IMG/VR virus record: IMGVR_UViG_3300037264_008105
Coordinates: 1 to 25,011 of that record
Reading direction: 5' to 3' (one strand)
From: a virus
DNA: 25,011 bases
This document shows, piece by piece, positions 781 through 17,222 of the stretch (its first letter is position 1; each line of letters begins with the position of its first letter). Below the pieces are notes generated by a model. The model was not told the origin of the DNA, did not search any database, and saw only the letters and a program-made list of their open reading frames with translations. The position numbers and the translations under genes were made by a program.

Positions 781-1068
781 CTACACCTTGTCGGGGGCCG
801 GGAACCTCGCCGCTATATCGCCGAGAGTAGACGTTGGTTCTTGGGTCGAGAGCAACTCAAGCGCTTCCTTGAGAACGACCCGGTGCGCCCGGTCTGACTT
901 CATCGCCGCGACGGTGCGCATGATCTGCCTCGGCGTGCTCTTGTTCGCTGTCCGCCTCGCGACGTGCGCGAGCGCTGTCTGGTTGAACGCCGCCTCGAAC
1001 GCAGCAAGGAAGTAGGTCTTCCCACCGACAAGAACGAGCTTGGGGCGTTGGATCGCGCTGTCGCTCAC
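781..1068 (-). CDS. Small hypothetical protein
   Basis: A 95-residue protein starting at a GTG that overlaps the stop of the RuvC-like gene (GTGA). The sequence begins with a short beta-like segment (KLVLVGGKTYFLAAFE) and continues with basic helices (RQIMRTVAAMKSDRAHRVVLKEALELL). I do not recognise the family. The coupled start after the resolvase gene suggests co-expression with it. The gene ends about 85 bases before the next start, and that gap contains the candidate promoter at 709-764. Confidence 0.6.
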   Translation of the reverse strand: MSDSAIQRPKLVLVGGKTYFLAAFEAAFNQTALAHVARRTANKSTPRQIMRTVAAMKSDRAHRVVLKEALELLSTQEPTSTLGDIAARFPAPDKV

Positions 1069-1778
1069 GCCACCGCTCCAGCATGCGTGCGCCGCGCGTG
1101 CTCGGCGAGGAGGAGCGCTTCGCACTTGCCGGCATGCGGGACGCGGCAGCGCACGTTCTCGCGAAGGTCGTAGCCGGGGAAGAGCGAGCTCGCCTTCTCG
1201 ACGGCGAGTCGCTTCGCTTCCTTCGTCCGCTCGTTCTTCTCGAGACCGGTCGCCGGCTGGATGCCCATGCGCTTCTTCCAGCTCACGGGCCGGATCTCCT
1301 CGTAGCGGATGCCGGCCACGTCGAGCGCCATGAGCCAAAGGCCGTAGCCCATGCCCGTCGTGAACGTGGACGCGGCGCCCTGCCCCTTCGGGCGGTGACA
1401 CGCCGGACACGGTGGGCCGCTCCCCGGAAACGCCTGTTGCTCCTCGAGCATGGCGAGGGTGATCCGCGGCTTCCACGCGATGAGAAGCCCGTGCATCCCG
1501 CGGCGGTCGTAGCCGCCGTCGTTCGGAAGAAGCGGGACGTGAGCTGTGTCAAGCGCACGACCGTCGGCGCCGACGAGCGCGAGGAAACCGTCTAAACCTG
1601 GGTCGACCCCGAGGTAGTCGGTACCGCGAGCGGGCGGCAGCTCGGAACCGAAGCCGGGCTCGTTGCAGTAGCACACGGACACGCCCGCGTGGGGATGTGG
1701 GGCGCCGGGCGGACTGAGCGCCGAGTGCAAAGGCGCCGGCGTGCTGTCGAAGTCGCACGCTTCATCAACGCGGTTCAT
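1065..1778 (-). CDS. RuvC-like Holliday junction resolvase / nuclease
   Basis: A 237-residue protein. An N-terminal extension of about 50 residues (Pro/Ala rich, with a CYC pair) precedes the RuvC-type fold. DYLGVDPGLDGF supplies the first catalytic Asp, LAMLEEQQAF supplies the central Glu, then GAASTFTTGMGYGLW and WKKRMGI, and KCEALLLAEHARR fits the C-terminal acidic motif. RuvC-family phage resolvases cleave branched DNA before packaging. Two oddities: CPACHRPKGQ, a CxxC-containing insert, interrupts the usual segment after the central Glu, and the final motif has Glu where Asp is more usual. The gene lies downstream of the ParB-like gene across a 46-base gap without a strong SD, so a later start is possible. 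Confidence 0.75.
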   Translation of the reverse strand: MNRVDEACDFDSTPAPLHSALSPPGAPHPHAGVSVCYCNEPGFGSELPPARGTDYLGVDPGLDGFLALVGADGRALDTAHVPLLPNDGGYDRRGMHGLLIAWKPRITLAMLEEQQAFPGSGPPCPACHRPKGQGAASTFTTGMGYGLWLMALDVAGIRYEEIRPVSWKKRMGIQPATGLEKNERTKEAKRLAVEKASSLFPGYDLRENVRCRVPHAGKCEALLLAEHARRTHAGAVA

Positions 1779-1824
1779 GCCGAGATCTTACACGAAACGC
1801 CCGGCAAAATTTAGCGCCTGCCGA

Positions 1825-2820
1825 TCACACCGATCGGTCTTGGCGTTCCTTGTACTTGCCGACACTGCCCTTGGGATCTCGCTGGCCGCGGTAGCCGCTC
1901 GGGTCCGTCTTCGCGATCGTGTGCTTCGCGTGCGGCGCATGCCGGAAGTCGAAGGGCTTGTTGAGGACGGCGCGCTTGCCCTTGACCTTCGTGTCACGCG
2001 GGACCGCCGCGGCTTCGTCTTCGTCGTCGGACTTCGCCTTCGTCGGTGCCTCGTCGAGACGAACGAGGACAACCTGCGGTCGGATGTTGAGCGCTCGCGA
2101 GGCGCAGAGGCGCGTGTTCCCGGCTACGAGGTGGAGTGTGCCGTCGTTGCGCTCGAGGACGATCGGCGCCGGCATGTCGGTCTCGGCGAGGAAGCCAGCG
2201 ATCACGCTCGAGGCGTCCCTGTCGTAGAGCCCGCCGATCTCCATGACTTGTTCGAGCGTCCGACACTCCCACGACTCCGTGTTCTCGAGCTCGGCCCACT
2301 TCTCGTCGGTGAGCGGCACGAGCGGCGCGCGCTCGATCAGCCCCGCGAGCGCGCCCGCGCGGACGCCTTCACACTTCGCGACGCGCTCGATCTCTCCCTG
2401 TTCCGCCTCGATGCTCGGGCGGACCCACCCACCATTCCAACCGTCGGACACGAGCGCATCGCCGAGGATCGCCATCACGTCGTGGCCGTAAGGCGTCACA
2501 CGGATGTCCGGCACCATGGCCTGAACGCCGGGCACGAGCCGCTCATCCTTCACGAGCACGCGGTCGAGCCACTCGAGCCGGAACCGGACAGGCTTGTGGG
2601 GGTCCTTCGATCGGAAGGTGTCGCCGCGCTGGAAGAGCTGCGGCATGAGATCGCGCGCGGCGAAGCAGAGGATCACCTCGTTCGCGCCAACCTCGGGGTC
2701 GGGCATCGTGTCGAACCACACGAAGGGGCGCTGCGCATCCTGTGGCGCGAGTCGAAGTGTCTGCGTCACGCGACGGAACGCCGGGAACGAGACGACATGA
2801 TAAAGCCACTTGACGCTCAC
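1825..2820 (-). CDS. ParB-like domain protein
   Basis: A 331-residue protein. I place the start at the GTG at 2820 (VSVKWLYHVVSF) because it overlaps the stop of the HNH gene (GTGA) and has GGAG upstream; longer in-frame starts lie inside that gene. The most informative part is near residues 215-260: MPAPIVLERNDG followed by LHLVAGNTRLCASRALNI, which resembles the 'GNTR' core of ParB/Srx-like domains that bind CTP or DNA. The C-terminus is Lys/Arg rich and low complexity. ParB-like proteins are common near terminase and head genes in phages, where their role is often unproven. Upstream order suggests it was originally the next gene after the MuF-like gene, before the HNH gene was inserted. 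Confidence 0.65.
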   Translation of the reverse strand: MSVKWLYHVVSFPAFRRVTQTLRLAPQDAQRPFVWFDTMPDPEVGANEVILCFAARDLMPQLFQRGDTFRSKDPHKPVRFRLEWLDRVLVKDERLVPGVQAMVPDIRVTPYGHDVMAILGDALVSDGWNGGWVRPSIEAEQGEIERVAKCEGVRAGALAGLIERAPLVPLTDEKWAELENTESWECRTLEQVMEIGGLYDRDASSVIAGFLAETDMPAPIVLERNDGTLHLVAGNTRLCASRALNIRPQVVLVRLDEAPTKAKSDDEDEAAAVPRDTKVKGKRAVLNKPFDFRHAPHAKHTIAKTDPSGYRGQRDPKGSVGKYKERQDRSV

Positions 2821-2841
2821 GGCGGAAGCTCCTGCCCCATT
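2816..2841. repeat. Duplicated stop/SD/start junction, copy 1
   Basis: A 26-base segment spanning the end of the HNH gene, an SD-like GGAG and the GTG start of the ParB-like gene. It matches 3391-3416 at 23 of 26 positions. Both copies encode MGQELPP followed by a stop. Confidence 0.8.
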
Positions 2842-3395
2842 CGCCCGAGGGGCTTCGGACCAACAACACACGCACGCGAGCAGAAGACATGCTTCGCTCC
2901 ACGCGCCTTTGCTTTGGTGATCTCGGACGGACTCCGTCGGAAAGATGCGCCGCAACGTTCGCACGTCAACGGCGGCGACTTACGCTGACCCTCGTTCCGG
3001 CACGCGAGTGAGCAGTACTTGTAGACATCGCGCGCGCTGTTCTGCCGCCTGTAATCGCGGCCACACACCGAACAAACCCACGCAGGTGTGTTGACCCCGT
3101 GCAAGCTGTGATGATGGCGCTGATGATCGCCGCGCGTCATGAGTTCGAGGTTGTCCAGCCGATCGTCAGACGGTATTTCGTTCTTGTGATGCAGCATAAG
3201 CCCACGCGGCACCGAACCATTGGCCGCTTCCCACCGCCACTTGGCGCGCGTGATCGTGCACCATTTCCCTGCGACGTCGTCCCAGTAACGCGCAAAGCGA
3301 CGACCGCTCTTACCTTTCGTGAAAACGAAAGACGCCTCGTCGAGTTCCTCGAAACGAAGGCGCGCCTTGATCGGCGTGCTCTGGTAGCACCTCAT
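2817..3395 (-). CDS. HNH endonuclease with zinc-finger tail (mobile)
   Basis: A 192-residue protein whose ATG overlaps the stop of the MuF-like gene (ATGA). The HNH core covers about residues 50-98: RWEAANGSVPRGLMLHHKNE, then DDRLDNLELMTRGDH and QRHHH, with the paired His and the Asn expected of the beta-beta-alpha metal fold. Two Cys clusters follow (CSVCG...YCSLAC and CERCG...FCSRAC), likely zinc ribbons for DNA binding. Such genes usually behave as homing endonucleases. The gene sits exactly between two coupled genes and ends with a near copy of the junction it interrupts (LG.MGQELPP), so both neighbours keep an SD and a start. This is good evidence for insertion as a cassette. Confidence 0.85.
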   Translation of the reverse strand: MRCYQSTPIKARLRFEELDEASFVFTKGKSGRRFARYWDDVAGKWCTITRAKWRWEAANGSVPRGLMLHHKNEIPSDDRLDNLELMTRGDHQRHHHSLHGVNTPAWVCSVCGRDYRRQNSARDVYKYCSLACRNEGQRKSPPLTCERCGASFRRSPSEITKAKARGAKHVFCSRACVVGPKPLGRMGQELPP

Positions 3396-3416
3396 GGCGG
3401 TAGCTCCTGGCCCATT
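3391..3416. repeat. Duplicated stop/SD/start junction, copy 2
   Basis: The upstream partner of 2816-2841, 575 bases away. It spans the end of the MuF-like gene and the ATG of the HNH gene. The three mismatches fall at positions 5, 11 and 20 of the 26-base alignment. Confidence 0.8.
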
Positions 3417-4552
3417 AGACCAAGAGGAGTTCGATGAAAAGGGTTGTGGACGTGGGACCTGCCGGCACCGCGTGTCCTCTTGGCGTGGGCTCGAGCGCGT
3501 TGCTGCCGGTCGGTCCCGTGGTGGGCGGTCTTGATCCGCCGGAGGTCGCCGAGCATCGTCTGGCGACCCGGGAGCGCAGTCATTCGGCGTGCGATGTCGG
3601 CGGAGGTGGCTGCTCTCAGCACCAGCTTATGCCGGCAGTTGTGAAGACATGGGGTCATACCAGACCGCGGAGTGGCCGGCAACAACGCCTTGGGGAACGG
3701 GCTCCTTTCGACCATGTAAGCGCATCCATCGCAAACAGCGTCGTCATCGGATGGATCTGGGCCGAGCCAGTAGGCGAGCACACCCGGCGGGAGCGCAAGC
3801 GCGCGAGCGCCGTCGTACATGCTGTCGAGCGACTTGAGGTACGACTCGAAACGGCGGAAGCCCGCGGCGTCGACCTTCGCGACGGCGTTCGCCCCCGAGC
3901 GCGCAGCCTCGTTGCGACGACGGCGCCACTCGTCGAGCGCGAGATGCCAGTAGCGCAGCTCCTCACGAAGCGCCGAGCGGAACCACTTCTCCTCCTCGGA
4001 GACCACCTTCGGGTCCGGGTGCATACGGTGGACGCCACTCGCGCGACGCCCAACCTCGTGCACCTGCTCGTACGCCTTCCGCCACATGAACGAGGTCTGG
4101 TCCTGGACCTCACGGAAGGAGACGTTGCCCTCGATCCACCCGGAGATCGTCGACTCGATGTCGCGCTTCGCCTTCCCCTCGATCGCCGAAAGGTCACGCC
4201 GCACGTTCCGCGCTGCCTGCGTGACGTGGTAGCGGACGTTGCCGGTCGACTGGCGCTTGAGCTGGCGATCACGCCGCGCGAGGTTCCCACCGAGGTTGGC
4301 GGTCCCGACCGCCTTCCCTTCGGCGAGCTCGGGGTGATGCTCCGCGAGCCACGCGTCGAAGTGCTCGAGGTCGTTGTCGTCCCGGACGAGCCACTCGACC
4401 CAGACCTCGTACGGGATGTCGTCGGCGCAGTTCTCGAGGACGGCGCGGGTGAGATCGACGGCGTCCTGCTCAACGAGACCGGCGAAGGGGTCGTCTACCG
4501 CGCCTGGCGGCAGCCCCGGATCGCCGACCACGTAGAGGATCGCACCGTCCAT
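3392..4552 (-). CDS. MuF-like minor head / head morphogenesis protein
   Basis: A 386-residue protein directly downstream of the portal block, the usual place for a MuF/SPP1 gp7-type protein that binds the portal and enters the head. Residues about 130-250 are helical (RDIESTISGWIEGNVSFREV, then AYEQVHEVGRRASG). Near residues 285-325 is the Cys/His region typical of the family: CDGCAYMVE, a P.P...LP stretch, then TPCLHNCRHKLV. The C-terminal tail is Arg/His rich and ends LGLMGQELPP, the segment duplicated in the HNH gene. The start at 4552 follows the previous stop by one base with an AAGGG sequence upstream. The minor head assignment rests on the C-terminal motif and position. Confidence 0.7.
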   Translation of the reverse strand: MDGAILYVVGDPGLPPGAVDDPFAGLVEQDAVDLTRAVLENCADDIPYEVWVEWLVRDDNDLEHFDAWLAEHHPELAEGKAVGTANLGGNLARRDRQLKRQSTGNVRYHVTQAARNVRRDLSAIEGKAKRDIESTISGWIEGNVSFREVQDQTSFMWRKAYEQVHEVGRRASGVHRMHPDPKVVSEEEKWFRSALREELRYWHLALDEWRRRRNEAARSGANAVAKVDAAGFRRFESYLKSLDSMYDGARALALPPGVLAYWLGPDPSDDDAVCDGCAYMVERSPFPKALLPATPRSGMTPCLHNCRHKLVLRAATSADIARRMTALPGRQTMLGDLRRIKTAHHGTDRQQRARAHAKRTRGAGRSHVHNPFHRTPLGLMGQELPP

Positions 4553-7237: not shown

Positions 7238-7786
7238 TTACCTCAACGCCGCCGAGATGGCGTAGACGAAGATCTTGGCCGACACCCCGTAGTTGCCAGT
7301 GAACGGGCACTCGAGATCGAACATGTCCTCGAAGTCCGACATCACGTTGGATATGACCCTGATCTCCGGGAACTTGTAGCTGGACGTGCTGATTCTACCC
7401 GCGATGTCGGGGATCGGAAGGATGTCTCCGTTCGTGCCCGGAGCGATGTCCGTGACGAGCGGACGGAGACTGGCTCCGGGGCGGAGCTTCTCTGCCACCT
7501 TGAAGGTCCCGTCGCGGGTCATGATGAGCTGCGTAGGACCGCAACGGAAGACCTCGTCGTTGCTTAGCTGAAGCGTCACGACCGGCTCGTGCCGGCGCGT
7601 GACCCTCGCGCGGCGAGCTCGCGACGCCACGATGAGCCCAGCCATGGTGGCGCCAGCGACGGCTACAGGTCGGTGCGGTTCCTGGACCCCGAAGACGCGC
7701 GAGTCGACAGGCAGCTCCACAAGATCCCGAACAGCGACGTCCGAGCCGTCAATCAGCCGAATCTTCGTATCGCCGGCGATAGGCAC
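7238..7786 (-). CDS. Stand-alone Hint-fold protein lacking splicing residues
   Basis: A 182-residue protein starting at GTG; an in-frame TAA lies four codons upstream, so no longer version exists. The sequence follows intein/Hedgehog (Hint) blocks from end to end: PIAGDTKIRLIDGSDVAVRD (block A), a middle beta region, FRCGPTQLIMTRDGTFKVAE then KLRPGASLRPL (block B region), and MFDLECPFTGNYGVSAKIFV (block F) near the end. The splicing residues are replaced: the first Cys is Pro, the TxxH motif reads GPTQ, and the closing His-Asn reads Tyr-Ala. The protein is therefore probably a Hint fold reused for another purpose, perhaps structural or protein-binding. It lies between the intein-containing terminase and the head genes. 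The SD is weak, so the start is the least certain part. Confidence 0.7.
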   Translation of the reverse strand: MPIAGDTKIRLIDGSDVAVRDLVELPVDSRVFGVQEPHRPVAVAGATMAGLIVASRARRARVTRRHEPVVTLQLSNDEVFRCGPTQLIMTRDGTFKVAEKLRPGASLRPLVTDIAPGTNGDILPIPDIAGRISTSSYKFPEIRVISNVMSDFEDMFDLECPFTGNYGVSAKIFVYAISAALR

Positions 7787-7819
7787 GCGAGCAGCTTACC
7801 AACTCGCGAGTCCGCACTC

Positions 7820-10800
7820 CTAGAACGGAAGTCTCCCCAAGTAGCGGTTGAGCTTCTCCACTGACGCCGGGCGAGACCTAGGTTCGATCGTCGTGTTCGG
7901 CCCGAGTTCATCCGTGAGGCAGCAATGGGCTGCTGATGCCAGAGCGTCGGCCACATCGTTGCTTCCCGCAGATCCGTCCGGGTTCAGCTCACGGTGGTCG
8001 ATCTTGTCGGCCTTCATGTCGTGCTCGAGGCCGGCGAGTTCCTGGAAGAGCAGGACACGCCCCGCGGCCTGCTCGCGCGCGTGGCGATCCTCCCGGTTGA
8101 GATCGCGCAGGAGCGCCGGAGGCCACGGGAGCCGAATGCGACCCTCGTTGAACACCTGACGAAGATCGCGGTAGGGTTTGCTCGAACGCCTCGTGGACGT
8201 CTTCGTTGTGTTGAACCCGAGGTCGCGAAGCCGTTGAAGGTTGTCTTCCGACTGGAACGAGTCGCAGGAGATGAGCTTGATCTGGAAGCCGATCTTGCGA
8301 AGCCAGTCGATGAAGATGCGGATCTTCTTGAAGTCGACCGGCTCACCGTACTGCCCACCACGAAGCGCGACGTAGAAGTCGACCTCGATCGTCTTGACCG
8401 CCTCGGTCTCACCCACGTCCGCGCGGTCGTCATCGGACCGCCGCGACTCGAGCCTGTGCTCCGCGGCGTGCACCATGGCAAAGCCAACGCTGTCGCCGCC
8501 CTTCTTGCCGAACGCAAGGTCGATCGCGATGAATCGCGACGCCGCCGGGTGCCGGATCGGACAGAGCTTCCCCATGTCGACGCGCGTGACAAGCTCGTGA
8601 GAGTACGCTTCCTGGAGCCGCAGCTCAGACTTCTCGTAGCAGGGGAGTTCCTGCATCGAGAACGGGAACGGCAACTCGTCGTCGAGCGCCGCGTGGATCG
8701 CTTCGCGCCGCGGGAAGAATGGCATGAACGCGCCGGTCGGCACGTCGGCGATCGCCTGCAACGCGCTGTGGATGTCGTCCATGAAAGCGCGGTAGTGGAG
8801 CACCGGGACCTTGAGGGTCATGTTCTCGTCGAGGTCACCGTCAGCGTCCGCATCGATCGGCTCGACCAGCCACGTACCGTCGGACTGCTTGGTGACGCGA
8901 TCGACGATACGCGGGTCCGCCACCTCCGAACCGGAGAAGACCCGGAAGTAAGGGTCGCCGAGGTCAGCCCGGAAGCCGCGGTTGCGGTCGCGGTGGTACC
9001 CCTTGGGGTTGAACGCCCATCGAGGACCGCGGACCGTGAGGACGCCCTGCACGCCGCGTTTCTCTCGGACGCGGTTCTCGAGATAGTCGCTCGTCGTGCG
9101 TGTCTGCGAGACGTAGATCGCAACGCCGGGAATGTCGCCGCCTTCCTCCACGAAGCGCGCCTCGAGACGTCGGCTGACCTCCGCGACCAGCTCGCGCGCC
9201 TTGTTCGACGTGCCTTCACCTTGCTCGAAGTAGTTGAGCTCGTCACCTAGACAAGCGTACAGCGACCTCCCGATCGCGTGCAGTTTGGCCGAATTTGAGC
9301 AGCCGATCCCATTCGCGAAGACTAGGTGCGTACCTGGGACGTTGTACACGTCGTAAACGCGGCAGGAGCCTCGACGCTGAATTCGTGTGATGCGCGCCCA
9401 ACGAACTCGACGATCGCCGATTCGCGCGTCGGGAAGCTCTTGCGCACGAACCGAAGCCAGTGCTTTGCCTTCTTGTGATTGTTGCAGTCCGCACACGCCG
9501 TCACCACGTTCGTGACGATATTCGGCCCCATCATTGCGAACGGAATCAAGTGGTCGATCTGCCACCGCGTCCCAACCAGCGGCGCGCAGCAATAGATGCA
9601 CGTCATCGCGAGTTCGGAGATGATCCACTCGAGCTGCGCCATCGTAAGCGTGTTCGGGAGATGTAGCCGCGTTGCTTTGGTCCTGGCCTTCCAGTACTTG
9701 ACGCGCAGCGGATTCTTCCGGTTGGCCTCGCGCGATAGCGCGTTTAGACGCGCGCGGTTCGCCCGCCTGTACCGCCGTTGCGTGTTGCGATGCTTCTCCG
9801 CATAGCCCGAGTCGACGCGCAGCCGAGGCTTCGTGATCTTGTGCCAGCGAATAGACGCGCGCTGAATCAACGACGCCTGATTCTTCGCATAGTAGCGATG
9901 CCACCGCTCGGCGACCTTCGCACGCAGGACCGGATCGGTCGAGCGGCGCCGATCCCTCTCTTGGAATTTCTCCGGGTCCGCCTTCCTTGCTTCCACTATG
10001 TAGGCCACTTCGCAGCGCCGGCACCATGACCGCAAGCGACCGCCAGCGCGCAGGCCAAAATCGCCGCGCGGCTTCAACGTCTTGCAGCGTGTACAGCGGC
10101 CCATCCCCCGAGGCGGCGGGACCCGTTTCAGCACTTTGGTCCGATGGTAGCGCGCGCTGTTGTTCAACTTGACGCAGCTCTTGCATCGCGCCTTGTTGCG
10201 CAGGTAGAACTCCGACGCGCGCGTCTCTCTGCACGTCTTGCAACACGGCGACATAGTCGCCTTCGCGGAGTTCTCCGAGCGGGAGCATCTCGGCTTGGAC
10301 TCGTCCTTCGATGACGGGGGTCGTTTTCCTAACCGCGGCGAACTCATGTGTCTCCGTTGCAGAGACACAATAACCATTCACAAGCTCTAGGTCAAAAACT
10401 GTTTTGACGCCAGAGAACGCGACGCCCTCGTACGCAGACTCACGCACGCCAGCCGCATCGAAGGTAAGCACCTTTGTAGAAGCATCAGCGAGCACCTCGA
10501 TTGGGACATCGCCCACCGGGGTCGTGATGAGCGTACCCTCTGCGACACAGCCGACCATGATCTCGACCGGCTTCGACTCCCACCGAATGTACTCGACGCC
10601 GTGCGGGAGCGGCGGGAACCGATCCTTGAAGAAGGGCGACGGCTCGATGAAGACATGCTTCAACTCCTCGAAGCCGACCTGCTTCACCATCTTCTTCGAG
10701 ACCGCGTAGAGGCCGAAGTAGATGCGCGATTTCGCCTGGAGCCCGTAGAAGGACGACGGCTCGCGCAGGCAGAACAAACGCGTGAGCTTGTAGGCAAGTA

Positions 10801-11254
10801 TCGCGCACGCCGCGAAGGACTTCCCGATCGAGCTCGCGCCCGTGAGGATCACCTCGTAGATCCCACCTGTCGGATCGCATGCCGCGAGTATGTGAGGCCG
10901 AAGTGCCGGGTAAAGCTCTCGACCGACATGTCGAATGTACTCCTCGCTGTCGAGGAACTCAGCGGGCGACGGTGGAACGATCTCGTAGTCCGCCGCGTAG
11001 ATCGCTTCCTGGAGGTTGCGGTCGCACTTGCCCTGCTGCATCTGCGGCTCGAAGACGTTGCGGATCAGCCAGTCGCGCGCGATCGATGGCAGCCCATTCC
11101 AGACGCCGAGCGACCCAGCTTGGATCGTCTCGAGCGCGCGCCCCATGCGGTCCTGTGCAAGCTGCGTGTCGAGAGCCCCGAACGGCGACACGACCGGGGC
11201 CGGAACGATCAGCTTGTCGTCCTCATCGACTTCGTCGTCCTCGTCGTCTAGCAC
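7820..11254 (-). CDS. Terminase large subunit, split by an intein
   Basis: The precursor is 1,144 residues from the GTG at 11254, chosen because AGAGGA lies 4-5 bases upstream; a GTG at 11314 would add 20 residues but has a poor SD. The N-extein (1-235) contains the Walker A loop GASSIGKS (139-146). The intein is residues 236-654. The C-extein begins SAKLHAIG and has a Walker B-like ACLGDEL (D671, E672), then the RuvC-like nuclease: FIAIDLAFGKKGGDS (D912), ISCDSF (D998) and KIDH...SNDVADAL (D1100, D1103). After splicing the protein would be about 725 residues. It would cut concatemers and power DNA into the head through the portal. The intein separates the ATPase Walker A and B motifs, so packaging should depend on splicing. 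Confidence 0.88.
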   Translation of the reverse strand: MLDDEDDEVDEDDKLIVPAPVVSPFGALDTQLAQDRMGRALETIQAGSLGVWNGLPSIARDWLIRNVFEPQMQQGKCDRNLQEAIYAADYEIVPPSPAEFLDSEEYIRHVGRELYPALRPHILAACDPTGGIYEVILTGASSIGKSFAACAILAYKLTRLFCLREPSSFYGLQAKSRIYFGLYAVSKKMVKQVGFEELKHVFIEPSPFFKDRFPPLPHGVEYIRWESKPVEIMVGCVAEGTLITTPVGDVPIEVLADASTKVLTFDAAGVRESAYEGVAFSGVKTVFDLELVNGYCVSATETHEFAAVRKTTPVIEGRVQAEMLPLGELREGDYVAVLQDVQRDARVGVLPAQQGAMQELRQVEQQRALPSDQSAETGPAASGDGPLYTLQDVEAARRFWPARWRSLAVMVPALRSGLHSGSKEGGPGEIPREGSAPLDRSGPACEGRRAVASLLCEESGVVDSARVYSLAQDHEASAARRLGLCGEASQHATAVQAGEPRASKRAIARGQPEESAARQVLEGQDQSNAATSPEHAYDGAARVDHLRTRDDVHLLLRAAGWDAVADRPLDSVRNDGAEYRHERGDGVCGLQQSQEGKALASVRAQELPDARIGDRRVRWARITRIQRRGSCRVYDVYNVPGTHLVFANGIGCSNSAKLHAIGRSLYACLGDELNYFEQGEGTSNKARELVAEVSRRLEARFVEEGGDIPGVAIYVSQTRTTSDYLENRVREKRGVQGVLTVRGPRWAFNPKGYHRDRNRGFRADLGDPYFRVFSGSEVADPRIVDRVTKQSDGTWLVEPIDADADGDLDENMTLKVPVLHYRAFMDDIHSALQAIADVPTGAFMPFFPRREAIHAALDDELPFPFSMQELPCYEKSELRLQEAYSHELVTRVDMGKLCPIRHPAASRFIAIDLAFGKKGGDSVGFAMVHAAEHRLESRRSDDDRADVGETEAVKTIEVDFYVALRGGQYGEPVDFKKIRIFIDWLRKIGFQIKLISCDSFQSEDNLQRLRDLGFNTTKTSTRRSSKPYRDLRQVFNEGRIRLPWPPALLRDLNREDRHAREQAAGRVLLFQELAGLEHDMKADKIDHRELNPDGSAGSNDVADALASAAHCCLTDELGPNTTIEPRSRPASVEKLNRYLGRLPF
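9293..10549 (-). mobile_element. Intein in the terminase (Hint-N and Hint-C)
   Basis: 419 codons. The first residue is Cys in CVAEGTLITTPVGDVPIEVL. Block B is YCVSATETHEF (TxxH present), and the N-terminal splicing domain closes with GELREGDYVAV. The C-terminal block is RVYDVYNVPGTHLVFANGIG followed by CSN, then Ser as the first C-extein residue. The penultimate residue is Ser, not the usual His, which occurs in some active inteins. Between the two halves the frame stays open for about 285 codons with no recognisable domain; the same DNA encodes an HNH protein in another frame. Splicing activity is inferred from intact Cys1, TxxH and terminal Asn. Confidence 0.88.
9322..10254 (-). CDS. HNH endonuclease nested in alternate frame of intein
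   Basis: 310 residues in the +1 frame relative to the intein. The ATG at 10254 (MSPCCKTCRET) has GAAGG five bases upstream, formed by the codons for the intein's REGD; an ATG at 10377 in the same frame would add 41 residues without Cys motifs. Two zinc ribbons come first (CKTC...CKSC, and CTRC...CRRC), then a long basic helical region, then the HNH core: CIYCCAPLVGTRWQIDHLIP, ending CADCNNHKKAKHW, at about residues 219-265. The HNH pattern and zinc pairs lie in this frame, while the intein frame has no motif here. It fits a homing endonuclease for the intein site. The gene ends 29 bases before the intein end. Confidence 0.75.
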   Translation of the reverse strand: MSPCCKTCRETRASEFYLRNKARCKSCVKLNNSARYHRTKVLKRVPPPRGMGRCTRCKTLKPRGDFGLRAGGRLRSWCRRCEVAYIVEARKADPEKFQERDRRRSTDPVLRAKVAERWHRYYAKNQASLIQRASIRWHKITKPRLRVDSGYAEKHRNTQRRYRRANRARLNALSREANRKNPLRVKYWKARTKATRLHLPNTLTMAQLEWIISELAMTCIYCCAPLVGTRWQIDHLIPFAMMGPNIVTNVVTACADCNNHKKAKHWLRFVRKSFPTRESAIVEFVGRASHEFSVEAPAAFTTCTTSQVRT

Positions 11255-11658
11255 TGCGTCCTCTGGAACTGCGCCTGCGAGAAGGGGTCCTCGACCTTCC
11301 AGTCGAGCAGCCACTCCGTCGTGCCCTGGAAGACGGTGTGCGGCGGCGCCGGCAGGATCTTACCGTAGCGCTCGAGGTCTTCCCACGTCGCGCGTCCGGT
11401 CAGGACCAAGCGACGTGCAGTTGTGTAGCAGGTCCGGCAGAGCCCGCGGATCTCCGTCGCGCGGACGCAAGCAGGAACGAGGCAGTCGGATGCTGGCGGC
11501 TTGCGCGCTACCTGCACAGCGACCTTCTGGATCGCACAGTCAGCCTGCCGTGCCATCACCCCCACCTCGTAGAGCTGTCGCTTCTCACGGTCTTCCTTCG
11601 GCTCACCACGACGCAGCTCTACCGCCTGTCGGCGTGCTCGTTTTTCATCCGCATCCAT
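11248..11658 (-). CDS. Small zinc-finger-like protein before terminase
   Basis: A 136-residue protein. The ATG at 11658 has AGGG about eight bases upstream. A basic helical N-terminus leads to DCLVPACVRATEIRGLCRTC, then YTTARRLVLTGRATW and a short ERYGKILP segment. The 'C....C.......GLC..C' arrangement is a four-Cys zinc site of the type found in small phage and bacterial DNA-binding proteins. The gene ends seven bases into the chosen terminase start, so the two are coupled. A small subunit of terminase would be expected at this place, but no HTH domain typical of TerS is visible, so I leave the role open. Confidence 0.6.
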   Translation of the reverse strand: MDADEKRARRQAVELRRGEPKEDREKRQLYEVGVMARQADCAIQKVAVQVARKPPASDCLVPACVRATEIRGLCRTCYTTARRLVLTGRATWEDLERYGKILPAPPHTVFQGTTEWLLDWKVEDPFSQAQFQRTQC

Positions 11659-11905
11659 GTATCTGCCCTACCCACTTTTCTACCTCAATCCGTGCTTCTC
11701 ACCCCCAAAGGGGGTAGATGATGCTTGTTGTAGATGTAGAACACATTTAGGCTACAGCGCATGCTAACCGCTTTGGCTGCATTGAACCTACCACCAACGG
11801 CATCAGATTCTACACCACAGCGCAACGAGTTACAACCGCGGAGCCACCAATCGCAAAACGCACTAACTAAGACCCAACATGACGCGACGCGGTAGCAACC
11901 TTACC
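11659..11905. other. Non-coding gap with short GC hairpin
   Basis: 247 bases between two leftward genes with no supported gene. It contains a perfect hairpin at 11701-11715 (ACCCCC, AAA loop, GGGGGT on the plus strand) in the leader of the 11248-11658 gene, and several GTAGAT/GTAGAA words at 11715-11740. No T-run follows the hairpin, so it is not a clear terminator. A promoter for the terminase block should lie here; TTGAGG-17-CAGATA just upstream of the ATG is only a weak candidate. Confidence 0.45.
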
Positions 11906-12935: not shown

Positions 12936-13114
12936 AGGGTGGCCTCCTTGGGTAACGCGACCACGGTGATCGCGCAGAGCTGCGCGCGGTAGTGGTCCAC
13001 GGTGTCGTCTACGTGCACCGAGCATACCTTGCGACGGAGCATCGGTTCGGGCAAGCGCTCGACCACGACACAGGACGTCGCGTCGAGCGGGCACTCGGTT
13101 ACTTCGCACTTCAC
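12932..13114 (-). CDS. Small Cys/His protein
   Basis: A 60-residue protein. GTG start with AAGGGG about six bases upstream; the stop overlaps the next gene (GTGA). KCEVTECPLDATSC and RRKVCSVHVDDTVDHYR give a plausible C..C...C..H zinc site. It is the first gene after the promoter at 13137-13166, with an expected leader of about 16 bases. No family is recognised. Confidence 0.65.
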   Translation of the reverse strand: MKCEVTECPLDATSCVVVERLPEPMLRRKVCSVHVDDTVDHYRAQLCAITVVALPKEATL

Positions 13115-13136
13115 GGAGCGCCCCTTCCAGTCTTAG

Positions 13137-13170
13137 ATAATACCGCCTGTCGATGCGGCACGTCAAGTTA
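13137..13170 (-). promoter_or_regulatory. Strong leftward promoter, conserved motif copy
   Basis: Read leftward: TTGACG (13166-13161), an 18-base spacer and TATTAT (13142-13137). The block from TAACTT (13170) to TATTAT matches the one at 709-742 at 26 of 34 positions, and its last 16 bases, CGACAGGCGGTATTAT, recur exactly at 14883-14898 on the other strand. It would drive the leftward genes from 13114. Confidence 0.7.
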
Positions 13171-13210
13171 CCTCTTCCCGTGCGCCGCGATCCACTGCTA
13201 TGCTTCGAGC

Positions 13211-13858
13211 ATGTCACAGGCGCCTATCTACTTGGAAGCCGAAATCGCGAGCCTCCCGGTTCTCTCGGCGCGGCTCAAGTGCGACGTCACCAAGCACGAG
13301 CTCAAGGCGTTCGTGCGAGTGGCGCCGGGCGAGAGCATGCTCCGCGTCGCCTACCGTCGGTGGCGTCGTCTTCTCGACGAGCTGTGGTTCGAGGTCTGCG
13401 CGCGGTGGCGCGACTTCCGCGCGTTCATCATGGACGTGGGGCTGCCGGAGAAGGCGGACGCGGTGCTCGGGCGCGTCGATGTTCTGGAGTCGCTCCGCCC
13501 CGGCAACGCTCGCTGGATCGCCGCCGAACACCGGATGGCGCAGGCATGGGCCGGTGCCCTGGCAAGGCGCCGCACCCGTCGCTTCGCCCCTGACGATCCG
13601 CTCATGACGCTCAACGAGCTCGGCGACCGCTACGGTGTCTCCCATGGGAAGGTGAACCGCCGGCGCTTCTCGACGGCGGCGGGCGGCTACACGAACCGAC
13701 AGGTCTTCGGGCTCGACCCGCTACCGATGAAGGACCCTAGGAACCCGCCCCGCGCCCCGCGCAAGCCGTACGTGAAGAAGGAACCGGAGCCGCCGCGGCC
13801 CGTACAGCCTGTGCGCCGCCGCGACGACTGGATCGGGCAGCTCGCCGTCGAGTTCTAG
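13211..13858 (+). CDS. 'VC.RW...RW' family protein with HTH tail
   Basis: A 215-residue protein. The ATG at 13211 is the first that gives sensible protein sequence; upstream in-frame residues overlap the opposite-strand promoter. Residues about 55-125 follow a pattern I know from phage proteins linked to HNH/AP2-type genes: FEVCARWRDFRAFIMDVGLP, then LGRVDVLESLRPGNARWIAA and EHRMAQAW. Next is an HTH-like LMTLNELGDRYGVSHGKVNR, then a Pro/Lys/Arg-rich tail. The protein at 13855-14184 shares the VCARW...F...D.G..P...P...RW layout. Function in the family is not known to me; DNA binding is likely. SD is weak. Confidence 0.65.
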   Translation: MSQAPIYLEAEIASLPVLSARLKCDVTKHELKAFVRVAPGESMLRVAYRRWRRLLDELWFEVCARWRDFRAFIMDVGLPEKADAVLGRVDVLESLRPGNARWIAAEHRMAQAWAGALARRRTRRFAPDDPLMTLNELGDRYGVSHGKVNRRRFSTAAGGYTNRQVFGLDPLPMKDPRNPPRAPRKPYVKKEPEPPRPVQPVRRRDDWIGQLAVEF

Positions 13859-15901: not shown

Positions 15902-16194
15902 AGAACTACTCCAAACACGAGATCTTCGAGCGGCGCGCAGTCGAGATCCTCTACCGCGCGACCGAGCTCGTGAAGCGCATCCCGGCGGTGGACCGCGGCG
16001 GGAAGTACTGGCGATGCCACGAGGTCGCCCGCCTGGCTCGCGGCTGGACGAAGCCGGTGCCGTGCGGTGAGCACGAGCCGCGCGGCGAGTTCAACCACGG
16101 GCGGACGTGCGTGCTCCCGATGAAGCACTACGGCAAGCACGGATGGTGCTACGCCTGCGAGCGCGAAGGCGCGGCGTGCGTGGAGTGCCGATGA
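15898..16194 (+). CDS. Small Cys/His-rich protein
   Basis: A 98-residue protein coupled on both sides by ATGA overlaps. An N-terminal helical half (SKHEIFERRAVEILYRATEL) is followed by CGEHEPRGEFNHGRTC, then MKHYGKHGWCYACEREGAAC and VEC. The six Cys and several His could form one or two zinc sites. It sits directly before the SUMF1-like gene. No family is recognised. Confidence 0.6.
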   Translation: MKNYSKHEIFERRAVEILYRATELVKRIPAVDRGGKYWRCHEVARLARGWTKPVPCGEHEPRGEFNHGRTCVLPMKHYGKHGWCYACEREGAACVECR

Positions 16195-17222
16195 GCGACG
16201 ACCGCCTCCGCGAGCTCGAGCGCACCCACGCGAACAGCCCGAGCGATGCCGCCGCGCTCATCCGCCTCCAAGACGAGCGCGTCCGCATCGGCCTTGGCTG
16301 GCGCGGTGAGGAGATGCCGTCGTGCCGCGAGCACGGCTTCTTCCCCAAGAACGAGGTGAAGAACCTCCGGCGCCTCGACCGGAACGTCTACGTCGCGCGG
16401 CTCACGAACGCGCCCGACCTCTACCTCGAGCTCGTCTACGTGCCGGGCGGTTCGCGGGAGTGCGACCGCTGCCACAAGGGCACCTACCCCATCACGACCG
16501 CGCTCTACGTGAACGGCGACCCGAACACCTGCGCCAACTGCGACTCGACAGGTCGCGTGACGACGGCGCCGTTCTACATCGGGCGCTACCCTGTCTTGCT
16601 CGGCGAGTACCGCGTCTTCGCCAAGGAGACCGGGAACGCTAGGGCAACCTCCCACATGGCGTCGGTCGACATGCGGCAGTACGAACGGCATCCCGCCGTG
16701 GACATGTGGGGTATAGACGCGCAGACCTTTTGCACGTGGGCTGGTCTCCGTCTCCCGACGGATCGCGAGTGGTTGTGGGCGGCGACCGGCGTCGACGAGT
16801 ACGGGAGTCGGCTGGCTTTCCCATGGAGTGTGCGCTCTCAGCACAACGCGCCGTGGGGTGATGATCTGTGCGTCGCGGGCGATGTCGTCACGCGCGCCGC
16901 CACGCGGCAGTTGTGCGAGCGCTGCCGCGGACCGGTTGAGCTGCGCAGCACCGGACCTTCGTCCGAAGTCTTCTACTGTCCCGCGTGCGAGCGGTGCCCG
17001 GACTGGCCGTACCTCTACGGCCCCGCGCGCCCGCTCGGTGTCTCGTGGTGCGGCGCCGCCGACATGTGCGGGAACGTCTGGGAGATGACCGCGGACGGCA
17101 GTCAGTACGGCGGCTCCTTCCGCACGACGTGGTGGCCCAAGGAAGGGGTTGGGCGCCGCTCGAACGAGCACGTCACGTCGGGAGACGAAGTGGGGTTCCG
17201 CGTCGCGCTGAGTGCTCTGTGA
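16191..17222 (+). CDS. SUMF1/FGE-fold protein with inserted Cys ribbons
   Basis: A 343-residue protein; ATG overlaps the previous stop (ATGA). It opens MSDDRLRELERTHANSPSDA, resembling the start of the protein at 17616. The SUMF1-type (formylglycine-generating-like) domain runs from about residue 70: LYLELVYVPGG, FYIGRYPVLLGEYRVFAKET, AQTFCTWAGLRLPTDREWLW, AADMCGNVWEMTADGS, YGGSFRTTWWP and EVGFRVAL. Two Cys ribbons are inserted (CDRCHKG...CANC and CERCRG...CPAC). The paired active-site Cys of sulfatase-activating enzymes, expected after GGSF, are absent, so enzyme activity of that type is unlikely. This fold also serves as a binding scaffold, for example in retroelement-varied receptors; I see no template repeat or reverse transcriptase here. 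Confidence 0.85.
   Translation: MSDDRLRELERTHANSPSDAAALIRLQDERVRIGLGWRGEEMPSCREHGFFPKNEVKNLRRLDRNVYVARLTNAPDLYLELVYVPGGSRECDRCHKGTYPITTALYVNGDPNTCANCDSTGRVTTAPFYIGRYPVLLGEYRVFAKETGNARATSHMASVDMRQYERHPAVDMWGIDAQTFCTWAGLRLPTDREWLWAATGVDEYGSRLAFPWSVRSQHNAPWGDDLCVAGDVVTRAATRQLCERCRGPVELRSTGPSSEVFYCPACERCPDWPYLYGPARPLGVSWCGAADMCGNVWEMTADGSQYGGSFRTTWWPKEGVGRRSNEHVTSGDEVGFRVALSAL

Follow-up and report, generated by a model that had tools for sequence, protein, structure and literature searches.

The gene for the terminase large subunit (TerL) in the virus record analyzed here (25,011 bases; referred to as the window) contains an in-frame intein, and inside the continuously open frame of this intein lies a complete HNH endonuclease gene that is read one base off. 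From the comparison of these sequences we infer, with high confidence, a cis-splicing mini-intein that carries an independently translated HNH homing gene, and that would combine protein splicing, internal initiation, DNA cleavage, and homing in one element. This double-coded layout is widespread, has largely escaped annotation, and is no quirk of a single phage: the original prediction had taken it as a one-off, and it recurs at 54 loci in IMG/VR and in three annotated phages.

The TerL gene (positions 7820 to 11314; all features are on the minus strand unless marked otherwise) was recognized by its open frame, the identity of its exteins, and its matches to terminases of Maribacter and Vibrio phages. 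Its frame comprises 1,164 codons counted from a GTG, with no stop anywhere in 7820 to 11314, and the true start may lie downstream of that GTG. The exteins share 45% identity with L002, an intein-free TerL-like viral protein. The intein (419 amino acids; 9293 to 10549) extends from Cys1 (10549) to a terminal Asn (9293), which are C256 and N674 in precursor numbering with S675 as the +1 residue, and was delimited by matches to the Intein_Nterm and Intein_splicing profiles and by a clean gap relative to L002 and L006. In both of the latter the site is empty and the alignment closes cleanly at the junction within the conserved G|SxxxHAxG motif, directly 5' of Walker B (DELNYFE). Block B of the intein reads TETH and block F/G reads VYDVYNVPGTHLVFANGI, with the penultimate residue of block G being Ser (GCSN) and not His, which is common at this place and not universal. 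The N-terminal splicing half (C1 ... TETH ... LREGDYVAV; 10244 to 10549) was assigned by profile match and direct reading, and the C-terminal splicing half (WARITRIQRRGSCRVYDVYNVPGTHLVFANGIGCSN, with the penultimate Ser; 9293 to 9400) was assigned by mini-intein alignment and direct reading. Between them lies a filler (9401 to 10243), the intein-frame reading of the nested gene, which according to the profile search and stop count is stop-free and has no recognized domain. The original prediction that the intein frame is open from Cys1 to the final Asn and holds no endonuclease domain was confirmed on both points, a profile search of that frame finding no such domain. When the two splicing halves were joined with the middle omitted, a weak match to the DnaB mini-intein 4o1r was obtained over most of the length (E 0.008). 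The intein profile scores themselves lie under the curated cutoffs (TIGR01445, 20.6 versus 24.5 bits; PF14890, 19.9 versus 35.8), probably because the long filler splits the domain.

The nested gene (9322 to 10254), at offset +1 from the intein frame, encodes an HNH endonuclease of 310 amino acids, assigned on the basis of Pfam, PHROG, and GC3. Its predicted coordinates were right, and its product scores above the Pfam gathering thresholds of both PF01844 (HNH; 7.4e-9, 36.1 versus 21.4) and PF14279 (HNH_5; 4.7e-9, 36.5 versus 27.5), with a PHROG match to endonuclease VII at 1.5e-16. Direct reading located two zinc ribbons, C5-C8/C24-C27 (10174 to 10242) and C54-C57/C78-C81 (10012 to 10095), and the HNH core at residues 219 to 263 (CIYC...DHLIP...N...CADCNNHKK; 9466 to 9600) was delimited by the Pfam boundaries and by a match to PDB 4h9d (5.9e-5). 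Cyanophage HNH homologues, in an alignment read by eye, stop approximately at the start of the intein C half, and the HNH gene thus fits cleanly between the splicing halves. When the HNH and the intein of the window were used as queries in direct homologue searches, no close relative of either was found, and a scan of genome contigs returned one distant TerL. Among 80 HNH relatives from IMG/VR, none was flagged with another open frame over its HNH ORF, some of them (at least L036, L040, and L062) having no usable ORF. Single-sequence AlphaFold models, with pLDDT of 44 and 35, were too poor for use.

Composition and stop content revealed how the two frames share this DNA. GC3 is 0.80 in the HNH frame versus 0.52 in the intein frame, and the position-wise GC of the intein frame over the overlap (0.79/0.54/0.52) differs from that of the exteins (0.67/0.41/0.81 and 0.66/0.43/0.83); therefore, the primary code of this stretch is that of the HNH frame. 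Moreover, none of the 68 HNH codons that start with AA, AG, or GA is preceded by T, while T stands in that place at 36 of 241 other positions. Intein-frame stops over the HNH gene number zero, versus a mean of 7.8 in synonymous shuffles, and zero was reached in none of 5,000 shuffles. In neighboring genes, the same frame contains about 0.7 of the stops expected from shuffling (TerL exteins, 14 versus 20.1; portal, 10 versus 13.1), and calibration on these genes of the window cut the expected number of stops to about 5.5. The calibrated P value of about 0.004 argues that the intein frame is kept open over the HNH gene beyond chance. Both chance and a double frameshift error are disfavored, because an unread frame would not avoid stops.

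To place the window among other viruses, IMG/VR was scanned for intein C-termini with a GC-rich pattern (62 loci) and an AT-biased pattern (80 listed of 88 stretches), giving 142 loci, and HNH profiles were searched in all six frames upstream of each C-terminus. At 54 of the 142 loci, a sense HNH was located out of frame within an intein frame that is open throughout; these 54 loci span a GC of 0.32 to 0.72 and have the HNH at +2 in 53 cases and at +1 in one (L144). Besides L144, the GC-rich set included 37 strict sense nested loci (all at +2), two loci with the HNH antisense to the intein (L100 and L102), and three with an in-frame HNH (L122, L141, and L143); the 80 loci analyzed in the AT-biased set comprised 16 nested (all at +2; GC 0.32 to 0.57), 8 with an in-frame HNH, and 56 without an HNH match. 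The 37 nested loci fall into 24 clusters at 90% identity and 16 at 50%. L100 (open frame 990 to 3878 of the reverse complement) holds two antisense HNH genes, apparently one per intein, and L102 holds one. RNR intein matches (L012 to L014) looked canonical on reading and were set aside.

The original prediction had regarded intein-frame stops or a loss of HNH residues among relatives as evidence against it. The HNH residues proved to be conserved, and no intein-frame stop was present inside the nested ORF at any of the 54 sense loci, versus 55.7 expected for the 37 GC-rich loci, 44.2 for the 16 loci of the AT-biased set, and 10.5 for L144 (about 110 pooled, the loci being related and the trials not independent). 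In the third frame of the 37 loci, 265 stops were counted versus 313 expected, and extein controls at the same offset held 359 versus 363; since these controls are close to expectation, there is no general stop bias. The stop-avoidance signal is not limited to GC-rich DNA, as several loci have a GC of 0.32 to 0.43. In addition, the stop load suggests an explanation for the prevalence of +2, the same 37 genes facing 313 expected stops at the other offset versus 56. These counts also bear on an assembly or sequencing error, a concern raised in the original prediction, in which an HNH really fused in frame would have been displaced by two compensating indels at its ends. Such fusions do exist, namely, the three in-frame HNH inteins named above and the eight loci of the AT-biased set, but two opposite indels would have to coincide exactly with the boundaries of the domain, the HNH starts and ends with an ATG and a stop of its own, the supposedly unread frame should hold about 5.5 to 7.8 stops and holds none, and the same layout occurs in 54 other metagenome contigs and three annotated phage records. 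An error of this kind is thus very unlikely.

The rates per frame were compared among relatives that carry HNH_3 at offset +2, the window having another HNH type at +1. Pairwise counts were pooled, with no tree, in family A (12 sequences, 64 to 98% nucleotide identity) and in families B and C (four sequences each). Over the overlap, dN/dS was 0.26, 0.19, and 0.35 in the HNH frame of families A, B, and C, and 1.22, 1.29, and 1.43, respectively, in the intein frame; 3' of the HNH stop in family A, the value for the HNH frame rose to 3.06 and that for the intein frame fell to 0.08. In these nested inteins, which are other than that of the window, constraint switches frame at the border of the nested gene, as the original prediction had anticipated for such a comparison. 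The same values speak to a reading in which the HNH is real and the intein is dead, or is continuous only through stop-poor GC-rich DNA. Long alternative frames occur in such DNA, and chance would suffice for some loci taken singly (L109, with 0.2 stops expected), but the pooled absence of stops, including the loci at low GC, the dN/dS of 0.08 in the intein C half of family A, and the intact TerL exteins make this reading highly improbable.

The nested ATG is preceded, at a distance of 5 nt, by GAAGG (10260 to 10264), which direct reading and anti-SD pairing mark as a possible weak Shine-Dalgarno (SD). The position of this element and its origin from the R-E-G-D codons of the intein were as predicted; as an SD, it turned out to be ordinary, its pairing of -3.3 kcal/mol being equalled or bettered at 39% of same-strand ATGs within TerL. 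Nested starts were then picked at 48 loci without SD information, as the first ATG within the 70 codons that precede the core, and the median SD pairing was -6.5 kcal/mol at nested ATGs versus -2.4 kcal/mol at other ATGs (Mann-Whitney 1.4e-9, the loci not being independent). Because nested ATGs are enriched for SD pairing, internal initiation is the likely route by which the HNH would be made, and the putative start site in the window is placed mainly by where homology begins. Programmed frameshifting from the intein frame would instead produce an IntN-HNH fusion. Upstream, the HNH frame stays open as far as 10377 (351 codons), and a shift anywhere in this stretch would therefore give such a fusion, and the window SD is weak; against this, no obvious slippery heptamer was seen at the junction when read by eye, HNH homology begins at the ATG, and the SD enrichment extends over the 48 loci. 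We consider frameshifting unlikely.

Group I introns may carry homing endonuclease ORFs, and both an intron of this type and a split intein whose halves are separated by a free-standing gene are known in phage terminases. For instance, the terminase of Listeria phage LIS04 (L005; 1381 to 5055) is broken by an endonuclease ORF in an apparently intron-like stretch and by a split intein (annotation and our own reading), and Vibrio phage 1.245.O (L164) has a TerL intein that is split, an HNH lying between its two parts in another frame and overlapping the end of the N half. For the window, an insert of either kind is exceedingly unlikely: an Rfam search across 7500 to 11700 gave no match up to E 1, and the intein motifs share one unbroken frame with both exteins. 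As with a group I intron carrying an ORF, a nuclease gene of its own lies inside an element that would remove itself, but here it is protein that would be removed, and the ORF must leave the host frame open over its whole length. Fractured genes, reportedly the subject of work by Dassa et al. in 2009 and said to combine a split intein with a free-standing endonuclease, likewise place a stand-alone endonuclease gene between the two splicing halves, at the position seen here, and the TerL of Vibrio phage 1.245.O resembles this arrangement; unlike in these, the intein frame of the window is continuous, and splicing would thus be expected in cis.

The original interpretation, an HNH gene in a second frame of the intein that would be made without splicing and would leave the terminase unbroken, is supported. 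Under the preferred reading of a cis-splicing mini-intein with its own HNH gene, the mini-intein would splice from an essential TerL motif, and the loop that usually holds the endonuclease domain of an intein would be a whole gene of the free-standing HNH type, with its own start and stop, one base off. Ribosomes from the TerL start would read through and yield TerL-intein, whose long linker would be tolerated and lost on splicing, while ribosomes starting internally at 10254 would yield the HNH protein. The latter would cut intein-free TerL alleles, and repair would copy the whole element. Selection would maintain the sequence of the HNH frame, and in the intein frame it would chiefly keep stops out.

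Comparison among loci provided indications of mobility. L145 has the TerL and intein site of L107 without the nested ORF (a mini-intein), and an alignment of L146 with L105, read by eye, shows that L146 retains both ends of the nested region and has lost its middle, with no break in the intein frame; L146, likewise a mini-intein lacking the ORF, is apparently a deletion derivative of the L105 type. Terminases of the L109 and L104 types have inteins at different sites and with different HNHs. Intein distances track HNH distances (Mantel r 0.63; 0 of 2,000 permutations as high), the intein N-side sequence having been listed for 41 nonredundant loci. Such patterns suggest an old composite that would since have reached several sites, portal genes (L125 and L158) among them. 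Free-standing relatives of the nested HNH adjoin the terminase genes of Yuavirus-type phages and are a plausible source of the nested gene. The TerL of L108, L115, and L116 has a second intein end (IPTHN) in its Walker A region, directly 5' of TRTAAEQ.

In the annotated collection, HNH_3 is nested at +2 in the unbroken terminase of Tetrasphaera phage TJE1, Acinetobacter phage Highwayman, and Rhodobacteraceae phage LS06-2018-MD07, and in all three records the terminase gene alone is annotated over the nested ORF. Highwayman has a GC of 0.40 and zero intein-frame stops versus 4.6 expected. Only the TJE1 record gives a host strain or species, and the other two phages are therefore not called cultured here. 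On balance, we lean toward a deep and cosmopolitan lineage of TerL and portal inteins (GC 0.32 to 0.72), in which a cis-splicing mini-intein and an independently translated nuclease gene in a fixed +2 frame would have co-diversified, with the +1 and antisense cases, the window included, as independent origins, and which would form a class not described as such.

To our knowledge, inteins are assumed either to include the homing enzyme as an in-frame domain or to lack one. If a nuclease lies hidden out of frame in many "large inteins without a nuclease," surveys undercount active homing elements and misclassify them as degenerate. A nuclease uncoupled from the spliced precursor would allow different expression levels for the two, and could be swapped or lost with the host gene unharmed. 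Moreover, the layout would offer a clean natural overlapping-gene system, in which one frame keeps its sequence and the other little beyond openness.

Canonical phage TerL inteins with an in-frame LAGLIDADG endonuclease, five of which spliced in a reporter assay and two of which cut DNA (Kelley et al. 2016, PMC5050341), are similar in being mobile inteins in a TerL ATPase motif, mobility here being read from sequence, but in them the endonuclease belongs to the intein as one of its domains. The published case closest to the present one is the ShiLan domain, which together with Pacc40 represents hidden HNH insertions in actinophage methylases that are thought to home (Arsenault et al. 2025, PMC11855218). 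Both there and here, a zinc-finger HNH lies out of frame inside a host gene with an open frame; the authors of that study found neither a splicing domain nor a detectable RBS for the ShiLan HNH (PMC11855218), whereas in the present loci an intein would remove the filler, the host is a terminase or portal gene, and the nested starts are SD-enriched. For overlapping frames, the same paper cites Gosselin et al. 2025 (10.1101/2025.01.02.630785), on actinophage inteins with a "non-canonical architecture," and Gorbalenya 1998, "Non-canonical inteins"; the layout may already be described there.

Elsewhere in the window, a separate Hint-like ORF (7238 to 7786, minus strand) lies between TerL and the portal gene and matches NCBIfam RtcB_rel_intein2 at 4e-13; neither Cys1 nor a terminal HN is seen in it, and it is possibly a decayed or non-splicing Hint domain. 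On the strand opposite to TerL, 12992 to 13858 (+) has a weak PHROG match to an HNH endonuclease (3.7e-6), and 16107 to 17222 (+) encodes an FGE-sulfatase/sulfatase-modifying-factor-like domain (PF03781, 1.2e-17).
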